A stretch of 44,463 nt of DNA, from assembly GCA_016197185.1 (NCBI GenBank), contig JACPWH010000018.1, positions 1 through 44,463 of the forward strand, written 5' to 3'. Below the pieces are notes generated by a model that was given only the letters and a program-made list of their open reading frames with translations, was not told where the DNA came from and did not search any database. This document shows positions 2,185 through 25,048 of the stretch, one piece after another (the stretch's first letter is position 1; every line of letters starts with the position of its first letter). Origin of the DNA: Ignavibacteriota bacterium. Its GTDB lineage: Bacteria > Bacteroidota > Ignavibacteria > Kapaibacteriales > UBA961. Both the position numbers and the translations under genes were made by a program.

Positions 2185-3360
2185 ATGAAATATCAACAAA
2201 CAGAATGGTTTTCTATACCAAGAATTATGTGTGGTTTAATGTCGGGAACCTCACTCGACGGCATTGATGCAGCAATCGTTGAATTTGCAGATCGCGACGG
2301 AAAACACAGCTTTATTCTAAAATCTCAGCTTACCGTTCCCTATTCAAATGAAATTCGTGACGAAATAACTCGGCTTATCGAAAAGAAAAGTACAATTGCT
2401 GAGGTAAGTTGGCTTCATACTGCCCTTTCTGAATTACATGCTTCAGCAACGCAAAAAGCGTGCGAGATTGCAGGAATTTCAACCGATTCATTAGACGGAA
2501 TAGGATTTCACGGTCAAACTGTGTGGCATGCTCCACGTGCTAAGAAAAAATTCGGTCTTAACTTCGGTTCTACGCTCCAACTTGGCTCCCCCTCCGTTCT
2601 TGCAAATGTTCTCGATGCTCCTGTTGTTGGAGACTTCCGCTCGGCAGACGTTGCAGTAGGAGGTCAAGGTGCGCCGTTAGTTCCTATTTTTGACTCAACC
2701 TTTTTACGGGAAGAGCACCATAACGTTATTGCATTAAACATCGGAGGTATTGCAAATATAACACTATTGCCTCCTATAGGAAGCAAAGATGAAATTCGTG
2801 CCTTTGATACTGGACCTGGAAATGTACTTATTGATGCTGCAGCACGTATGTTTTTTGGTAAGCAGTTCGATTCAAAAGGATCAATAGCAGAAGCCGGACG
2901 GACAATCAAAGCTATGCTTGAGCAATTAAAACAACATACCTTTATTACGAAAACCCCTCCAAAATCCACCGGACGAGAAGAATTTAACTCAACTTGGTTA
3001 GAAAAGCGTATTCGAACAACATTCCAACCGTCTATCCCCACCGAAGATATACTAAGGACGATTACTGAATTTACAGCATGGTCAATTGCCGAAAATATCC
3101 GTTTATTTGCCAGCCCAACTTCCAAAATAATTGCATCAGGAGGAGGAATTCACAATAGAACATTGATGTCCTTGCTTCAAAATGAATTACCTATTGCACA
3201 AATAACCACTGCTGATGCAATCGGCATCCCATCGGATGCTAAGGAAGCTGTTTGCTTCGCATATCTTGCTTACCGAACACTCGGAGGATTAACAGGGAAT
3301 ATACCATCCGTTACAGGGGCAAAACGACCTGTAAAACTTGGTGTTGTTGCATTTCCATAA
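2185..3360 (+). CDS. anmK: Anhydro-N-acetylmuramic acid kinase
   Basis: AnmK phosphorylates and hydrolyses 1,6-anhydro-MurNAc to MurNAc-6-phosphate, recycling peptidoglycan fragments in the cytoplasm. The 391-residue protein has the diagnostic MSGTSLDGIDAA (19-30), the GFHGQTVWH block, GGQGAPLVPIFD with the catalytic aspartate region, NIGGIANIT, FDTGPGN, and the C-terminal ATP-site ASGGGIHN. The start is uncertain: ATG 2185 gives 18 residues before MSGT and leaves only 21 bases to the divergent ftsE start. ATG 2227 would give a family-like shorter N-terminus. It is followed by the DnaA-box-rich intergenic region. Confidence 0.93.
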   Translation: MKYQQTEWFSIPRIMCGLMSGTSLDGIDAAIVEFADRDGKHSFILKSQLTVPYSNEIRDEITRLIEKKSTIAEVSWLHTALSELHASATQKACEIAGISTDSLDGIGFHGQTVWHAPRAKKKFGLNFGSTLQLGSPSVLANVLDAPVVGDFRSADVAVGGQGAPLVPIFDSTFLREEHHNVIALNIGGIANITLLPPIGSKDEIRAFDTGPGNVLIDAAARMFFGKQFDSKGSIAEAGRTIKAMLEQLKQHTFITKTPPKSTGREEFNSTWLEKRIRTTFQPSIPTEDILRTITEFTAWSIAENIRLFASPTSKIIASGGGIHNRTLMSLLQNELPIAQITTADAIGIPSDAKEAVCFAYLAYRTLGGLTGNIPSVTGAKRPVKLGVVAFP

Positions 3361-3663
3361 AATAACTGTCTGATTACAAAGAAGATAGAATATCTGTTAA
3401 AGTTATCCACAATATTGTCCACAAATTAACATTTTTACGTGGAAAGGGTTTAATTTACCGTGAACACAAAATGCAGAACGTGAATAAAAATATTTCTTTC
3501 CACACAATGGTTGAAAACTTAAAACTTATTAACAATTCTTTCCACAGTATCAACAAGATAAATATTTATCTTAACATACTATAATTTTTAGGTTTATTCA
3601 TTCTTTTCCACAATGTTATCCACATTTCCACACTCTGTATTTACTCTTACATTAAGAAAATTT
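3361..3663. other. oriC: Candidate chromosomal replication origin (DnaA-box cluster)
   Basis: This gene-free, AT-rich 303-bp region contains seven 9-mers close to the DnaA-box consensus TTATCCACA, all on the plus strand: 3403-3411 TTATCCACA, 3415-3423 TTGTCCACA, 3496-3504 and 3538-3546 CTTTCCACA, 3604-3612 TTTTCCACA, 3616-3624 TTATCCACA, 3624-3632 ATTTCCACA. The two outer groups each contain a pair offset by 12 bp. Between the groups lies an 18-bp perfect palindrome (3555-3572) followed by a very AT-rich stretch to about 3600 that could be the unwinding element. dnaA is not adjacent. Origin function is inference; a DnaA-titration locus would look similar. Confidence 0.6.
3555..3572. repeat. 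18-bp perfect palindrome inside the DnaA-box region
   Basis: AAGATAAATATTTATCTT reads identically on both strands. It sits between the left and right DnaA-box groups and directly before the AT-rich segment 3573-3600. It could be an operator, part of the DNA-unwinding element, or a binding site for another initiation regulator. No protein can be assigned. Confidence 0.75.
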
Positions 3664-4386
3664 TTAAATAATTGAAGATAATGAAGAATGAGAAGAGAGC
3701 ATCACAGGTTTAAAGGGCAAATGTGAATCACAAAAAAGGAGAACCTCTCCATCGTGAATTTCGACGGATATATTTGAATCAACTGCACAATTTCTTGCTC
3801 CTTCACGTACTCCCAGTTCTAAAAGCTCATTTCTAAGATTCCATTGTAAACCGGATGTTGTCAGAATGGCTTTGGGTTGTGGAATAAGGGAAATAGTTTC
3901 TCCTATCTGTGCTGAAAATGAAATCGATTCTCTTAGGGGAATTGCATACCGACCATTTTCATACAAACAAATGGAAAGTATTTGTGAATGACGCATAAGT
4001 ACACTCCAATTATTCAAGGAATGCTCAGTTAATCCTCCGTGAAATCCACAAACTAAAATAGAGCTATATCCTTGTTTCTTGCAGAAAACCAAACACTTCT
4101 CAAAATCATTAGATTCTTGGTCAGGAAAATGGAGAATAGTTGAATCAGGAAAATCAGATGCATCTCCGTGTTGGTGAAAGGAATCAAGGTCGCCAATGAT
4201 GAACGTTGGTGAAACATTCATTTGTTGAAGTTTGTGAGCAGCTCCATCTGCTGCAATTACAGGTGAATTTTTAAAAAAATCAAAAAAATCTTTTAGTAAA
4301 GGTAAATTACCGTCAAGGCATAACAATACATCAAAATTATTATTCGAACTATTATGTAAATCAGTATGTTGATGAAATCTATCCAT
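3664..4386 (-). CDS. thiN: Thiamine pyrophosphokinase-like protein
   Basis: TPK transfers pyrophosphate from ATP to thiamine to make thiamine diphosphate, the cofactor used for example by the transketolase encoded at 6.3-8.8 kb. The 240-residue protein shows the family blocks in order: VIAADGAAHKL (43-53), PTFIIGDLDS (60-69) with the metal-binding aspartates, NDFEKCLVF (93-101), and GFHGGLTEHSLNN (114-126), corresponding to the G-x-x-GGRxDH motif with Glu in place of Asp. The C-terminal half has the beta-sandwich pattern of TPK. There is no TPP riboswitch-like sequence upstream. It is divergent from the M3 peptidase gene. Confidence 0.82.
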   Translation of the reverse strand: MDRFHQHTDLHNSSNNNFDVLLCLDGNLPLLKDFFDFFKNSPVIAADGAAHKLQQMNVSPTFIIGDLDSFHQHGDASDFPDSTILHFPDQESNDFEKCLVFCKKQGYSSILVCGFHGGLTEHSLNNWSVLMRHSQILSICLYENGRYAIPLRESISFSAQIGETISLIPQPKAILTTSGLQWNLRNELLELGVREGARNCAVDSNISVEIHDGEVLLFCDSHLPFKPVMLSSHSSLSSII

Positions 4387-4560: not shown

Positions 4561-6185
4561 ATGACAAGTGGCTTACAAAAATTCTCCGAACTGCCCTACG
4601 AACGTCCAAATCTCGACACAATAGAAGCAGCATACAAAGACATTACAAAACGTTTTATTGCTGCAACTACGGCAGATGAACAAAATAATGTTATACGAGA
4701 TTGGAATGCTCTCCGTAGCGTGCATTTAGTGATGAAAACTCGCCAACAATAGCTGAATGGAATCAAAATTTCGTAAAAATCATTCTTTCATCACGTTTTT
4801 TAAAAGAAATTGAAAAAGAATGGGGAGCACTTTTTATTTCAAACTTAGAGCAAGGTATCAAAACATTCTCGAATGAAATCAAGCCGATGCTGATTCAACA
4901 ATCTGAACTCACAAAGCAGTATGACGGAATCCTTGCTTCTGCAGAAATTGAGCTTGATGGCGAAACATTCAATCTTTCACGTCTCGAACGTAAACTTCTT
5001 GACCCGAACCGTGATGTACGTAAAAAAGCTCAACAAGCACGTTTTGATTTTCTCGCTTCAAATAAGGAAGAATTAGACCAAATATATGATGATATGGTAA
5101 AGCTTCGCCATAAAATGGCACAGCAACTTGGCTTCAAAAATTTTATAGAATTTCGTTATGTAGAAATGGGACGTAATGAATACACCCCTTCAGATGTTGC
5201 CCGTTTCCGCGATTATGTTCACGAAAAAATTGTTCCTCTGATCGCCAAACAGCGTAAAAAACAAGCTGAACGTTTAGGTGTGAAAGAATTACATTTTCAG
5301 GATGAAATTCTTCAGTTTCCCGAGGGGAACCCTACTGCACAAGGAAATCCTGAGTGGATTGTAGAGCAGGCACGTCAGATGTACAGCGAACTTTCACCGC
5401 AAACGGATGAGTTCTTCAATATGATGATTGACCGTGAATTGATGGACTTGGTTACTCGTCCGAATAAAGCAGTAGGAGGTTATTGTACTAATTTCCCTAC
5501 TTTCGGAATTCCGTTTATTTTCTCGAATTTTAACGGTACAACTCATGATGTAGAAGTGTTGACACACGAGGCAGGGCACGCTTTCCAAGCATATAAAAGC
5601 CGTAATAACAAAGTAGTTGATTACATTTTCCCGACTATGGAAGCATGTGAAATCCACTCAATGGGAATGGAATACCTTACATGGAATTGGATGGATAAGT
5701 TCTTTGGCACACAAACATCGAAATTCAAGTTCTATCATTTACTGCGCTCGTTGATGTTCCTCCCGTACTGTTGTGCAGTGGATGAATTTCAACATTGGGT
5801 ATATGAAAACCCTGAAGTTACTCCTGCAGACAGAAAAGCGAAATGGCATGAATTGGAGTTGAAGTATTTGCCATGGCGCATTTATGAAGATTTACCGTAT
5901 GCAGAAGAAGGCACGGTATGGCAATTCCAAAAACACATTTACGAAATGCCGTTTTACTACATAGATTATGCACTTGCTCAAATATGTGCGTTGCAAATCT
6001 GGAGTAAATCACGTAAGAATATGGATGAGGCACTCAAGGACTATATCAGAATCTGCGAAATCGGGGGAAGCAAAACATTCCTAGAAATCGTAAAAGCCGG
6101 AAATATGCACTCTCCTTTCGAGACAGAATGTTTGGATCAGGTGATTCATGAAGCTGAGAATTGGTTGGAGGAGTGGAAGAATTGA
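4561..6185 (+). pseudogene. M3-family oligoendopeptidase (PepF-like), N-terminal frameshift/deletion
   Basis: M3 oligopeptidases are cytoplasmic zinc enzymes that cleave short peptides. The 3' frame (4887-6185, 432 residues) has the catalytic HEAGH (227-231 of that frame; 5565-5579), the upstream GGYCTNFPTFGIPF block, and the downstream EACEIHSMGMEY with the third zinc ligand. The 5' frame from ATG 4561 carries the family N-terminus (KFSELPYERPNLD) up to WNALRS and stops at 4752. The other frame continues upstream of 4887 with clearly homologous residues (FSDENSPTIAEW, KEIEKEWG) back to about 4719. By family comparison roughly 25 residues between LRS and FSDEN are missing, so the junction near 4715-4725 is a deletion plus frameshift. 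It is a real lesion or an assembly error; a shorter protein from ATG 4887 is possible. Confidence 0.75.
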
Positions 6186-6257: not shown

Positions 6258-7130
6258 ATGAACGTAGAATTTAGCGACATTTCATTCGAAAACAGACGTC
6301 GTACACCTCAAGAATTGACCGAAATCGCAACGGAAATCCGCCGCGATATTATGAAAATGCTTGTACTTGCAAAATCAGGTCATAGCGGTGGTCCTCTTGG
6401 TTCGTCAGACATTTTTGCAGCACTCTATATGGGCGGTGTAATGCGCCATCATAAGAATGACCCACATTGGGAAGGGCGCGACAGATTTGTACTAAGTGCA
6501 GGGCACATGTGCCCGGTGCAGTATGCTACGATGGCAAACGCAGGTTTCTTTCCTAAGCAAGAATTATCCACCTTACGGAAATATAATACCCGTTTGCAAG
6601 GTCATCCGGGGCGCGATATGGGGCTGCCGGGGATCGAAACTTCATCAGGTTCACTTGGTCAGGGTATTTCCATCGCAGTGGGAATGGCGATGAGTGATAA
6701 ATTACTCGATAAATCTGACCGCAGAGTGTTTTCACTGACAGGTGACGGAGAATTACAAGAAGGTTCTGTGTGGGAAGCTGCAATGTCGGCTGCGCATTTC
6801 GGACTTGATAATTTCTGCTGGATCATTGATAACAACGATTGTCAAATCGACGGAAGAATCCGCGAGGTGATGAATGTATATCCGATAGATAAAAAATGTG
6901 AAGCGTTCGGTTTTGAAACAATTGTTATTGACGGACATAATTTTGATGAAATTATGGGCGCATTTGATAAATTCATTGAAAACAACAAAAACGGAATTGG
7001 CAAACCAACTGCTATCGTTGCAAAGACATATATGGGACGCGGAGTTTCATTTATGGAAGATAATTTCAAATGGCACGGCAATCCTCCTAATGAACAACAA
7101 GCCGAACAAGCACTTGGGGAATTAGCATAA
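6258..7130 (+). CDS. Transketolase, N-terminal (TPP-binding) subunit
   Basis: 290 residues corresponding to the first domain of transketolase, encoded separately as in archaea and many bacteria. It binds thiamine diphosphate pyrophosphate and Mg2+: GDGELQEGS (162-170) with DNNDCQIDG (191-199) is the complete TPP motif. GHSGGPLGSSD (41-51) and GHMCPVQYA (82-90) are substrate/cofactor loops. With the second subunit it transfers two-carbon units in the pentose phosphate pathway. Unusually, the partner gene is not directly downstream: a lipoprotein gene begins at the base after this stop codon and separates the pair by 654 bp. Confidence 0.93.
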   Translation: MNVEFSDISFENRRRTPQELTEIATEIRRDIMKMLVLAKSGHSGGPLGSSDIFAALYMGGVMRHHKNDPHWEGRDRFVLSAGHMCPVQYATMANAGFFPKQELSTLRKYNTRLQGHPGRDMGLPGIETSSGSLGQGISIAVGMAMSDKLLDKSDRRVFSLTGDGELQEGSVWEAAMSAAHFGLDNFCWIIDNNDCQIDGRIREVMNVYPIDKKCEAFGFETIVIDGHNFDEIMGAFDKFIENNKNGIGKPTAIVAKTYMGRGVSFMEDNFKWHGNPPNEQQAEQALGELA

Positions 7131-7760
7131 GTGAGAACGTTTATACAACATATTCTTATCTCAGCCGGGATTATTATGTGTATAGGGTGCAAAGATCCCC
7201 AGCAGCAAATACCCGTAAAACAAGGAACAACACCCTTGCCTACGCAAGATCAACAGCAAACCAAACCTGCATTAGAAGCCGAGGAAAATGTAAGTAAAGA
7301 TTTTGAGAATCTTAAACTCACTAAAAAAAATCCTTTGCCTGCAAAAGCCCTCGTAGAGTTTTTACCAGAGAAATTAGTAGAGGCCGGTTACCCTGCTTCA
7401 GTAATGAAGTCTGAAAGAGACGGATATATGGTAACATTGGCACGGAGACAATTTTCCATACCGCCAAAAGGTTCTATTATAATTTCAATTACAGACTACG
7501 GAGGAAGTGCAATACTTAATACAAAAGGGTACGAAATGCCGCACACTGAGATTGGTATTAGAATTGAGAAAATCAGACTTCCCGATGGTGTGGGATTTAA
7601 AACATTTAATCCAAATAATAACAGCGGTATAGTTGCTGCATTGGTTGGCGGGAGATTTGGGATTGATATAGAAGCAGTCAATATTCCAGAAAGTTTTGGA
7701 GATATTGGACAACTATTGGAAAAAGTGAATATAGAAGGACTCCTTAAAAAAGCAAAATAA
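7131..7760 (+). CDS. Hypothetical lipoprotein between transketolase subunits
   Basis: 209 residues from a GTG that immediately follows the transketolase stop (7128-7130). The start is supported by the lipoprotein signal peptide it yields: charged N-terminus, hydrophobic stretch and a lipobox ending IGC with Cys20. A short Gln/Pro/Thr-rich linker follows, then a globular region from about residue 70. I recognise no family. The segment GSIIISITDYGGSAIL and the later NSGIVAALVGGRFGIDIEAVNI look beta-rich. The tight spacing implies cotranscription with transketolase, but nothing suggests an enzymatic link. Confidence 0.75.
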   Translation: MRTFIQHILISAGIIMCIGCKDPQQQIPVKQGTTPLPTQDQQQTKPALEAEENVSKDFENLKLTKKNPLPAKALVEFLPEKLVEAGYPASVMKSERDGYMVTLARRQFSIPPKGSIIISITDYGGSAILNTKGYEMPHTEIGIRIEKIRLPDGVGFKTFNPNNNSGIVAALVGGRFGIDIEAVNIPESFGDIGQLLEKVNIEGLLKKAK

Positions 7761-7784
7761 AGTATTTAATAATTACTATATACA

Positions 7785-8792
7785 ATGGAAGAATATACAT
7801 TATTGGGTTCAAAACCCACAAGACACGGATTTGGTGAAGCGTTGGTTGTACTTGGCGAGCGAAACGAAAATGTGGTTGTACTCGGAGGTGATATAACAGG
7901 ATCAGTTATGACTTCCCTTTTCAAGGAAAAATTCCCGGAAAGATTCTTTTCAATTGGAATTGCAGAGCAAAATGCTACGACTATAGCTGCCGGACTTGCT
8001 CTTTCAGGCAAAGTGCCGTTCTTTGCAAGTTATGGTGCATTCTGCGCTTTACGTAATGCTGATCAAATTCGTATTTCTTGCTGCTATAACGAGGCGAATG
8101 TGAAAATAGGAGGAGGTCATGCAGGAATCAGTGTAGGACCGGATGGAGCTACACACCAAGTACTCGAGGAAGTTGCCTATCTTAGGACATTGCCGCACAT
8201 GACAATGCTTGTACCCTGCGATTATCTTGAAGCAAAAAAAGCAACGATTGCTATGGGCGAGATGGTTGGTCCGGCTTATATCCGTTTTGGACGCTCTCCT
8301 GTACCGCTTTATACAACAGATGCAACTCCTTTTGAAATAGGAAAAGCACATGTGCTTCGTGAAGGTAATGATGTTGCTTTGATTGCATGTGGTGCTCTCG
8401 TGTGGGAGTGTTTGCTTGCAGCTCAAGAATTAGCTAAAAAAGGAATTCAGGCTCGCGTAATCAACAATCCGTCTATCAAACCGTTCGATGTAGAAACTAC
8501 AGTAACAGCAGCTCGCGAATGCGGTGCAATTGTTACTGCTGAAGAACATCAGGTTCATGGCGGTTTGGGGGGAGCAGTTGCAGAAGTAATTGCAAAGAAC
8601 GCTCCGGTTCCGATTGAGTTTGTGGGTGTAAAGGATAGTTTTGGCGGTAGCGGTGACCCTGACGAATTGATGATAAAATTCGGCTTGACATGGAAAGAAA
8701 TATATGCTTCTGCTTTGAAGGCTATTGAACGTCGGGATAAGGGTTCTGTAGGATTCAGACGTGTGAAGGATGTGGAGCGGTATATCGGGTAA
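7785..8792 (+). CDS. Transketolase, C-terminal (pyrimidine-binding) subunit
   Basis: 335 residues covering the pyrimidine-binding and C-terminal domains. The glutamate that activates TPP lies in FFSIGIAEQNATTIAAGLAL (E61), followed by FASYGAFCALRNADQIR and the GGHAGISVGPDGATHQ substrate/cofactor loop. The C-terminal domain begins about residue 190 (HVLREGNDVALIACG) and includes EEHQVHGGLGGAVAEV. Together with the 6258-7130 gene it makes one full transketolase. 1-deoxyxylulose-5-phosphate synthase is excluded by the split organisation and the DGATHQ loop. It is followed by a good intrinsic terminator. Confidence 0.93.
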   Translation: MEEYTLLGSKPTRHGFGEALVVLGERNENVVVLGGDITGSVMTSLFKEKFPERFFSIGIAEQNATTIAAGLALSGKVPFFASYGAFCALRNADQIRISCCYNEANVKIGGGHAGISVGPDGATHQVLEEVAYLRTLPHMTMLVPCDYLEAKKATIAMGEMVGPAYIRFGRSPVPLYTTDATPFEIGKAHVLREGNDVALIACGALVWECLLAAQELAKKGIQARVINNPSIKPFDVETTVTAARECGAIVTAEEHQVHGGLGGAVAEVIAKNAPVPIEFVGVKDSFGGSGDPDELMIKFGLTWKEIYASALKAIERRDKGSVGFRRVKDVERYIG

Positions 8793-20521: not shown

Positions 20522-22654
20522 TTACCTGCACTCAATCAAGCAACTCTTCTCTTTCCCGCCGCCTGCCCAGGTCTGTTTCACTACAGTCCCGCTACCCTGC
20601 ACTTTCACCTTTACGTTTGCAGCATGGAGTACAGCCAATGCTCGACGCACCGACATTCCCCGAACATCAGGTCTGAGCGCATCGGCATGTGCTTTTTCAA
20701 TCGAATCGCGTTTGATTGCAGGAGTAGGAACTCTATATTCAGCAATTACGTCAGTTCCGCGCAATACTTTTTTACCAGGCAGTGGTGTTTGCTGGGCAAT
20801 TATCCCCTGTCCGTGATTATTAAGGCGTAATCCGTTTTGGTGTAAAACGGTCATGGCGTTTTCAACGGTGATACCTCGTACATCCGGCACGGAAACTGAA
20901 TCGGGCAGAGTGGCAGTTTTTGTTTCGGTGTCGGAAATACCCTCCATGTGGGTAGCAGAAATCCATTGTTGTGCAATTCTACGGAAAATCGGTGCAGCTG
21001 TTTTACCTCCATAAATATCAGTTTGTGGACGGTCGAGCATGATCATCATAGCAACTTTGGGCTTATCTGCCGGAAAATACCCTACGAACGAAGCGGTGTA
21101 AGCCTGTTTTGAGTATTTGCCATCCTCAAGTTGTTGTGCAGTTCCCGTCTTTCCGGCTATTCTCATCCCTTGCACCCGTGCTTCATTTCCTGTTCCACGT
21201 TCAACTACTCCGCATAGTAATTCTGTAAGCGTTGTGGCAGTTTGCTGAGAAACCACCTGGCGGATTTTTTGCGGAGCATAACTTTCGGTTTCCCTTCCGT
21301 CCTCGCCAAATACCTTTTTGATAAGATAGGGTTTCATCATCACACCGCCATTGGCAACTGCAGCATAAGCATTTACTATTTGCAATGCAGTTGCAGCAAG
21401 TTCATAACCATACGCCATAAAAAATTTTGTAGCACCGTCGAACTCTCGTGGCTTCTTCATTCTGCCGGAGGACTCTCCGGGTACATCAATTCCGAGTGTG
21501 ATCCCAAAACCAAAATCACGGGCATACTTGTAGAATTTATCATCCGGAATTTTCATGGATTGTGTGGCAAAAACCACATTACTCGATTGCTCAAGCCCCT
21601 GAGCAAATGTTATTCGTCCTAAAGGGTGGGTATCTTTAATTTCATAGCCGTCAGAAAGTTTCCATATACCACCATGAGCATCTACTGTATCGGCAGGTGC
21701 AACCGTTTTTTCTTCAAGTGCTGCTGCAGCAGTCACGAGTTTGAATGTTGAGCCGGGTTCATACATATCGGTGATCGCCCGTATTTTCATTGTCTCTTGG
21801 GATGCCTGTTGAGGGCGGTTGGGATTGAAACTCGGGGAGGAGGCAACAGCAAGAATTTCACCTGTTGATGGATCAAGTGCAATGATTGTACCCGATACTG
21901 CCCGTGCATCGGCAATTCCCCGTTCGAGTTCGTATTCTGCTATTCGCTGTAGTTCCATATCAAGTGTAAGCTGTACGGATTTTCCGTTGGAAGCGGCTGC
22001 TGAAGGTAAATCCACGGATGGACGAAGATTTCCACGTCCGTCCCGTTGCATCACCATATATCCCGACGAACCACGCAAGACGGAATCGAGAGCAAGTTCC
22101 ACCCCGCTTAATCCCTGATTGTCAACATTCGTGCAGCCGACTATTTGTGCTGCAGCATTACCGAAATAATAATTCCGTCGTGGCTCTGTTACGCGAATAA
22201 GTCCTATATCTTGCAAAGTGTCAAGAATAGAAGAGCGGTCAAGATTACTTCGTGCAACCCACAGAAATGATTTGTCGGAAGATCGTATTTTTTGTTCCCA
22301 AATAGATGCGGAATCTCCGGTTAATTGTTGCAAAGCTGATGCAATGGTATGGGTATGCTGTACCATACTAGGATCTACAGCAAATGATGCACTGTTGATT
22401 GTTGAGGCAATTACATGTCCATTGCGGTCATAGATTGACCCTCGTTGAGGTTTGAGTTCAATGCGAGATTCGTATTGTTTACGGGCAAGAGCACGATATT
22501 TTCCTGAATTGATAACTTGAACTATGAACAAACGAACCAATATTCCGATGAAACAGAGCGAAAGAACAACCAGCAGAAGACCTGTCTTCCAATTTTGATT
22601 GGATTCCTTTTCTTTGTCCGATTCCGTTTGAGATTTTGTTTGAGTAGATTGCAT
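20522..22654 (-). CDS. ftsI: FtsI/PBP2-like penicillin-binding protein with two PASTA domains
   Basis: 710 residues. A cytoplasmic tail and one membrane helix (about 25-46), the dimerisation domain opening KPQRGSIYDRNG (68-79), then the transpeptidase with all three motifs: SxxK as S302-T-F-K305, SxN as S357-S-N359, and KTGT 502-505. Two C-terminal PASTA repeats follow (about 592-645, VPDVRGITVENAM; and 665-710, RPDVRGMSVRRAL). It crosslinks septal peptidoglycan in the periplasm. The usual mra/mur neighbours are absent; upstream, 26 bases away and on the same strand, is a tyrosine-recombinase-like gene. The second PASTA ends unusually, KEKSCLIECR, with two cysteines. Confidence 0.93.
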   Translation of the reverse strand: MQSTQTKSQTESDKEKESNQNWKTGLLLVVLSLCFIGILVRLFIVQVINSGKYRALARKQYESRIELKPQRGSIYDRNGHVIASTINSASFAVDPSMVQHTHTIASALQQLTGDSASIWEQKIRSSDKSFLWVARSNLDRSSILDTLQDIGLIRVTEPRRNYYFGNAAAQIVGCTNVDNQGLSGVELALDSVLRGSSGYMVMQRDGRGNLRPSVDLPSAAASNGKSVQLTLDMELQRIAEYELERGIADARAVSGTIIALDPSTGEILAVASSPSFNPNRPQQASQETMKIRAITDMYEPGSTFKLVTAAAALEEKTVAPADTVDAHGGIWKLSDGYEIKDTHPLGRITFAQGLEQSSNVVFATQSMKIPDDKFYKYARDFGFGITLGIDVPGESSGRMKKPREFDGATKFFMAYGYELAATALQIVNAYAAVANGGVMMKPYLIKKVFGEDGRETESYAPQKIRQVVSQQTATTLTELLCGVVERGTGNEARVQGMRIAGKTGTAQQLEDGKYSKQAYTASFVGYFPADKPKVAMMIMLDRPQTDIYGGKTAAPIFRRIAQQWISATHMEGISDTETKTATLPDSVSVPDVRGITVENAMTVLHQNGLRLNNHGQGIIAQQTPLPGKKVLRGTDVIAEYRVPTPAIKRDSIEKAHADALRPDVRGMSVRRALAVLHAANVKVKVQGSGTVVKQTWAGGGKEKSCLIECR

Positions 22655-23836: not shown

Positions 23837-25048
23837 ATGAAAAACTATATCTATCTGTTGGCAGCATCTATCCTTCTTTTATCATCATGCACAAAAAACT
23901 CCTTATCGGACGGAAGTAAAACAATCAAATTTTGGCATTTTTGGAGTGAGCCGTCACAAAAACAGGCATTGAAAGACATCGTAGCTGAATTCGAGAAGCA
24001 AGAGCATTGCAAGGTTGAACTTACGGATTTAAGTTGGAATGATGGCAAAACAAAACTTCTCGCTGCTTTTAATTCAAATACCGCACCCGATATTATAGAG
24101 CTTGGTTCGGATTGGGTGGCACAATTTTCAAGCGCAGGTGTGCTGCAAGAATTACCGAAAGATTCTATTTTTTCAAAATTTGCTGAGTTTTCTCAGCCAC
24201 CTGCAATGTGGAAAGGAAAAGTATATGCGTATCCTTGGAATGTAGATACTCGTGTCATGTTTTGCAATAATGAACTGTTAAAGAAAGCGGGAATAACTTC
24301 AATTCCTACTAATACTATCGAGCTAATCACTGCTTGTGAAAAACTGCAATCAATAGAGGGGATATACCCTTTCGGTGCTAATGGGGACGACCGTCATCGC
24401 CTTTACAAAAAAATACTTCCGTTCTTTTGGAGTAACGGAGGTGATGTGATGGACGCAAACGGAAAACTAACCTTAAATTCAGCAGAGAATATCCAAGGAT
24501 TGAACACCTATATTACATTATCTCGAATGGGTCTGATAGAAACACAGCGACAGTTGGATGTATCGTTTGTTCAGGGCAAGGTGGGATTTTGGTTTTCAGG
24601 CGGGTGGCTGATGACAAAAATTGCTGCGGGAAATCCATCGTTGGATTATAGCGTGGCATTAGTTCCCGGAATGAAATCTTCAGGAGTATCATTTGCCGGA
24701 GGTGAATATATTGCTTTATCGGCTAAAGGAACAAATCAAGAATTAGCTGCAAAATTTGCAAAATATATAACTGATGGTAAAACCACTTTGGAATTCTGTA
24801 AGAGGGTACCTGAGGTCGGCTTCCCTGCCGACAAACGATATTTCTCTGACAATTATTTCAAGCAGGTTAAGAACCGCAGTATTTTTGCAGAACAATTAAC
24901 AAAAGCAAGAATGACACCTGTCCACCCAAAATGGTTAGAGATTGAAGTACTTTTGGAAAATGCAGTTGTTGAGGCATTGTATGGAAGAAAATCAGCTGCG
25001 AATGCTCTGAATGATGCACAGGCAGAGGCAGTTGGGCGGTATCAGTAA
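23837..25048 (+). CDS. ABC transporter extracellular solute (sugar)-binding lipoprotein
   Basis: 403 residues from ATG 23837, which gives a lipoprotein signal peptide ending LSSC; the open frame extends further upstream but without a signal. Family 1 solute-binding features: ITIKFWHFWSEPSQKQALKDIV-like opening, WNDGKTKLLAAFNSNTAPDIIELGSDW, AYPWNVDTRVMFCN, and GGWLMTKIAA. Such proteins deliver oligosaccharides or glycerol phosphates to ABC permeases. No permease or ATPase gene adjoins it, so it is an orphan in this window. TATCTTTG at 23740 matches a -7 element, but no TTG is at the expected spacing. Confidence 0.88.
   Translation: MKNYIYLLAASILLLSSCTKNSLSDGSKTIKFWHFWSEPSQKQALKDIVAEFEKQEHCKVELTDLSWNDGKTKLLAAFNSNTAPDIIELGSDWVAQFSSAGVLQELPKDSIFSKFAEFSQPPAMWKGKVYAYPWNVDTRVMFCNNELLKKAGITSIPTNTIELITACEKLQSIEGIYPFGANGDDRHRLYKKILPFFWSNGGDVMDANGKLTLNSAENIQGLNTYITLSRMGLIETQRQLDVSFVQGKVGFWFSGGWLMTKIAAGNPSLDYSVALVPGMKSSGVSFAGGEYIALSAKGTNQELAAKFAKYITDGKTTLEFCKRVPEVGFPADKRYFSDNYFKQVKNRSIFAEQLTKARMTPVHPKWLEIEVLLENAVVEALYGRKSAANALNDAQAEAVGRYQ

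Follow-up and report, generated by a model that had tools for sequence, protein, structure and literature searches.

The intergenic stretch at positions 3361-3663 is predicted, at a probability of about 90%, to be the chromosomal replication origin (oriC) of a Kapaibacterium-like bacterium. This assignment, made from sequence, follows from the density of DnaA boxes, their conserved place, the switch in GC skew that occurs there, the location of box clusters of other families at skew inversions, and a dnaA gene that lies elsewhere. The window, by which we mean the whole 44,463-nucleotide stretch that was analyzed, is the entire contig C13 of a 3.36-Mb draft in 314 contigs, with a completeness of 92.7. 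The closest matches of its anmK protein come from MAGs labeled "uncultured Ignavibacteria" (89%) and "Bacteroidetes" (75%), followed by several Candidatus Kapaibacterium MAGs at 45-48%. From these matches we infer that the draft genome represents a Kapaibacterium-like lineage; NCBI taxonomy places Kapaibacterium in the Bacteroidota.

As a kind of element, an origin is nothing unusual; this one lies far from dnaA. Our literature search found neither an earlier report of this origin nor papers on replication origins of Kapabacteria. The assignment would show where replication starts in a lineage that is represented here by draft metagenome genomes alone, with uses in estimating peak-to-trough replication rates from metagenomes, in orienting assemblies and in designing oriC plasmids should a member be cultured.

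DnaA boxes and AT-rich DNA between anmK and thiN

The region was originally described as free of genes, and this held: anmK on the + strand and thiN on the - strand converge on it. The features of the locus are as follows.

2185-3360, + strand: anmK, anhydro-N-acetylmuramic acid kinase; left neighbor, kept in the family
3361-3663, no strand: candidate oriC, intergenic, 303 bp, 73% AT, flanked by convergent anmK and thiN
3403-3423, + strand: left DnaA-box doublet TTATCCACA-ata-TTGTCCACA with a 12-bp offset; the doublet aligns in both congeners (G001, G002) and in G009
3496-3504, + strand: DnaA box CTTTCCACA, core match only, from the box listing and alignment
3526-3546, + strand: middle weak doublet TTATTAACA-att-CTTTCCACA, from repeat D1 and alignment
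3547-3603, no strand: AT-rich spacer, candidate unwinding element A, from duplex stability
3555-3572, no strand: 18-bp palindrome AAGATAAATATTTATCTT, present here and not conserved in congeners
3604-3632, + strand: right module TTTTCCACA-atg-TTATCCACA with overlapping ATTTCCACA; best conserved part of the region
3633-3700, no strand: AT-rich flank, candidate unwinding element B, 3' of the boxes and overlapping the 3' end of thiN
3664-4386, - strand: thiN, thiamine diphosphokinase; right neighbor, kept in the family

The original prediction of seven same-strand DnaA boxes within 230 bp was confirmed, with all seven on the + strand between 3403 and 3632. These are TTATCCACA at 3403, TTGTCCACA at 3415 and CTTTCCACA at both 3496 and 3538, followed by a right group of TTTTCCACA at 3604, TTATCCACA at 3616 and ATTTCCACA at 3624. 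Two match perfectly, two carry one mismatch and three match in the TCCACA core only. Both of the proposed 12-bp pairs (3403/3415 and 3604/3616) are real, and a third, weaker pair (repeat family D1) consists of TTATTAACA at 3526 and CTTTCCACA at 3538; G001 has TTATCAACA as the first box of this middle doublet, and G004 and G007 have TTATTCACA. When tandem 12-bp pairs were counted at up to 3 mismatches in all, the window held only those at 3403 and 3604, and 1.31 Mb of relatives' sequence held 7, including some from the relatives' own clusters.

Across the window, TTATCCACA-like sites are not raised in number (15 versus 13.95 expected). Their arrangement is another matter: seven same-strand TCCACA cores fall within 230 bp, versus a maximum of three on any strand in 18 simulated 3.36-Mb genomes of window composition (Markov order 1 to 3). 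The exceptional feature is therefore the clustering of boxes and not their number, and the locus has the intergenic DnaA-box cluster beyond chance that marks an oriC. The same comparison bears on whether the region simply terminates transcription from both sides, with TCCACA repeats there by chance and a skew switch produced by gene direction. Its AT-richness and its place between convergent genes would suit a terminator. However, the simulations never yielded so many cores, the positions of the boxes are kept among relatives while the sequence between them drifts, and the skew switch holds for both gene strands (see below), all of which makes a terminator extremely unlikely.

As in an oriC, the boxes adjoin AT-rich DNA that should melt easily. 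Of all 60-bp pieces in the window, 99.75% are more stable than the one that begins at 3560; pieces starting from 3520 to 3560 lie at the 99.3-99.75 percentile, and the piece from 3640 lies at the 98.5 percentile. The central 18-bp palindrome that the original prediction placed here is present, but alignment with congeners gave no sign that it is conserved. We rejected AAGATAAATATTTATCTT as a functional part on this ground, and the palindrome is probably incidental.

In the basal unwinding system (BUS), tandem boxes no more than 3 bp apart beside DnaA-trios form the unwinding platform, where the trios (3'-NAN-5') number at least three and lie within 16 bp of a box (PMC8287927). The doublets at 3403 and 3604 both have a 3-bp gap, and a tandem pair of boxes at a 12-bp offset seems to be the working unit of the locus, as in other bacteria with a BUS. 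The likeness to the BUS of Bacillus subtilis and other bacteria (PMC6669920, PMC8287927) extends to the tandem boxes, the gap of at most 3 bp, the 12-bp offset and the AT-rich flank. It differs in the trios, since the anmK-thiN locus has three NTN triplets only and no clear run. These lie in TTACTCTTA at 3641-3649, a possible DnaA-trio run that fits the loose published rule. Three NTN triplets also occur at that place in both G001 and G002, although in AT-rich DNA such a pattern easily arises by chance. A search with the strict DnaA-trio motif gave no run above 2. Judged by its sequence, the right module with the flank at 3633-3700 has the box part of a BUS layout.

If the locus is the origin, DnaA, which is encoded on another contig, would bind the tandem boxes spaced 12 bp apart, presumably most tightly those of the right module (3604-3632). 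Bound DnaA would then oligomerize and open the adjoining AT-rich element, which may be either the spacer at 3547-3603 or the conserved 3' flank at 3633-3700. Helicases would then be loaded and two forks would leave in opposite directions.

Gene order and GC skew around the cluster

As far as the relatives' contigs reach, the order dapB, an ftsE-like gene, anmK, the boxes, thiN, an M3 peptidase gene and transketolase is kept in congeners G001 and G002. The same order is found in G004, G007 and G009 of a sister genus, at protein identities of about 35-88%. All five relatives carry a box cluster in the anmK-thiN gap, and in the alignment the box positions are kept and the intervening sequence drifts; both the position and the box layout are thus conserved among close relatives, as in an oriC. 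The best conserved part is the right module, TTTTCCACA-ATG-TTATCCACA-TTTCCACA, together with the AT-rich flank after it. A further sister genus (g2; G003 and G008) has few, degenerate boxes at the thiN site, and that site is no skew breakpoint there in the strand-controlled test described below.

In the window, the N- and C-terminal parts of transketolase are encoded by two different genes (6258-8792), and an ORF without an NCBIfam match (7131-7760) sits between them. This order of matches was also found in G001, G002 and G007.

We tested skew contig by contig, as the draft gives no whole-chromosome curve. Because gene direction also makes skew, we used GC skew at third codon positions with gene strand as a covariate. 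To the left of the cluster, where this contig offers only 3.4 kb and 279 third-position G+C sites, skew is negative for both gene strands (-0.218 and -0.065), and to the right it is positive for both (0.081 and 0.018). The same negative-left and positive-right signs were observed on both strands in G002, G004, G007 and G009, and in three of the four classes in G001. The best strand-controlled breakpoint of the window lies at 3511, within the cluster (rank 1/32). In G001 the best breakpoint is at 77,959 (rank 1/15), although it is weak (F 1.1). The cluster takes rank 2 in G004, G007 and G009, one gene away from the best breakpoint, and rank 7/11 in G002, where the best breakpoint lies elsewhere. 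Raw cumulative-skew minima also fall close to the clusters: at 5,059 versus a cluster center of 3,518 in the window (1.5 kb apart), and within 0.3-0.4 kb in G007 (21,431 versus 21,120) and G004 (23,471 versus 23,120).

Skew was a check to which the original prediction had pointed, and within the limits of a draft genome the inversion, once gene strand is controlled, falls at the cluster. A replichore switch is thus seen locally, on this contig and in most near relatives. Together with the conserved position and with a dnaA locus that has no cluster, this supports the oriC reading that the prediction had offered. It also shows that a draft in 314 contigs can yield an origin call when a strand-controlled skew breakpoint on single contigs is combined with a conserved box layout.

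The dnaA locus and a second box array

The dnaA gene lies on contig C30, so the candidate is not adjacent to dnaA, and in the source genus its locus has at most 2 box-like sites per 300 bp. A denser cluster near dnaA, a case that would have spoken against the original prediction, does not occur at the dnaA locus, and we rejected that locus as the origin because it has no box cluster in the source genus. On the 14-kb piece with dnaA, raw skew has a small minimum near the gene, and controlling for strand leaves very little signal (F 0.5, 12 genes). GGRDHTTV, the usual motif of the C-terminal box-binding domain, is present in the local DnaA, so binding to TTATCCACA is expected.

The oriC of Bacteroidetes is commonly distant from dnaA (PMC4755523), as the original prediction had stated for Bacteroidota, and adjacency to dnaA is for that reason not a defining feature of their origins. 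In two complete genomes of other families, the distance from dnaA to the estimated skew minimum is ∼585 kb (G016) and ∼141 kb (G023). The oriC of Prevotella intermedia OMA14 resembles our candidate as a DnaA-box cluster at a GC-skew transition far from dnaA (PMC4755523); here, by contrast, the neighbors are anmK and thiN, the lineage is uncultured and the evidence is per contig and not from a whole chromosome. Within the wider Bacteroidota/Chlorobi group, Melioribacter roseus has a predicted 303-bp intergenic origin with DnaA boxes at a skew transition (PMC3534657). It shares these properties with our candidate but lies between dnaA and dnaN, whereas our candidate and dnaA are on different contigs and the dnaA locus has no box cluster.

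A wider search for dense box clusters, also suggested by the original prediction, did return another one, although outside the source genome it was found in only one congener. This array (C206 427-584, L003) lies immediately 3' of a gene for a PhoR-type histidine kinase, and its boxes at 427, 448, 469, 490, 533, 554 and 576 are mostly 21-22 bp, or two helical turns, apart. The copy in G002 (G002:C91 1320-1476, L163) has five perfect boxes and a different following gene. No box cluster was found at the phoR loci of the other genera searched, and contig C9 of G001 ends just after phoR. With respect to skew, the phoR position shows no inversion in G004 and weakly one in G003.

One could take the C206 array for the real oriC of the genus and the thiN cluster for a remnant or accessory. 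The more regular spacing of its boxes and the five perfect boxes in G002 would favor this. However, the array was found in the source genome and G002 only, phoR has at most the weak inversion seen in G003, and it is the thiN cluster that coincides with the top-ranked breakpoint of the window and of G001. We therefore hold an origin at C206 to be very improbable.

The datA and DARS loci of Escherichia coli are non-coding clusters of DnaA boxes. That likeness offers a possible analogy for the C206 array, which we consider a candidate DnaA-titration or DnaA-modulating site; we know of no such site in Bacteroidota. Titration had also been raised for the anmK-thiN locus, with the true origin elsewhere. 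Dense boxes alone are no proof of an origin, and the cluster on C206 is an example. Yet a titrating site, which like datA would be a cluster away from the origin, need not sit at a replichore switch, and skew inverts at the anmK-thiN cluster in the window and on five sister contigs. Its position is also kept in two genera, and clusters at different addresses in other families sit at inversions as well (see below). The titrating role thus fits the C206 array better, and for the anmK-thiN locus we regard it as highly unlikely.

Box clusters in other families

Box clusters of three other families also mark skew inversions, beside other genes. The raw minimum and the cluster lie at 107,072 and 106,480 in G034, 22,725 and 22,840 in G019, 13,815 and 13,190 in G027, 44,840 and 45,620 in G040, 98,584 and 97,450 in G026, and 10,597 and 9,500 in G017. 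By the strand-controlled test, the cluster ranks 1/147 in G034, first in G027 and G040, second in G026 and G017, and third in G035. The G019 cluster coincides with the raw cumulative minimum but not with the outcome of the strand-controlled test, and in G020 the cluster is not at a skew inversion. The complete genomes G016 and G023 showed no convincing TTATCCACA-type cluster at the skew minimum; their sampled minima are near 140 kb and 1.466 Mb, and thiN is not at the minimum. These two genomes neither support nor refute an oriC at the anmK-thiN locus in the source family.

In another family of the order, with G034 (C7 106354-106592, L232), G040 (C12 45500-45760) and G027 (C10 13084-13300), the cluster and the inversion adjoin serS and pyruvate kinase genes, with cca ∼5 kb away and then transketolase. 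Such different neighbors imply that the address of the origin differs between families. We tentatively propose, as a scheme that is possible and still rather less than probable, that the order shares one origin design of tandem 12-bp DnaA-box doublets whose address has changed between families (anmK-thiN, serS-pyk and others), with dnaA elsewhere, and that the genus adds the helically phased 21-bp array downstream of phoR as a control site that titrates or modulates DnaA.

In G019 (C5 22810-22870, L246), two 12-bp doublets lie directly upstream of the gene for a B12-dependent ribonucleotide reductase. They might serve as a DnaA-regulated promoter, as an origin or in both roles; skew corrected for gene strand lends no support to an origin. 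Lastly, in G035 (C172, L157) the skew minimum at 21.9 kb lies between two box groups (20642-21083 and 24257-24308) separated by ∼3.5 kb, and these paired groups could be a bipartite origin.
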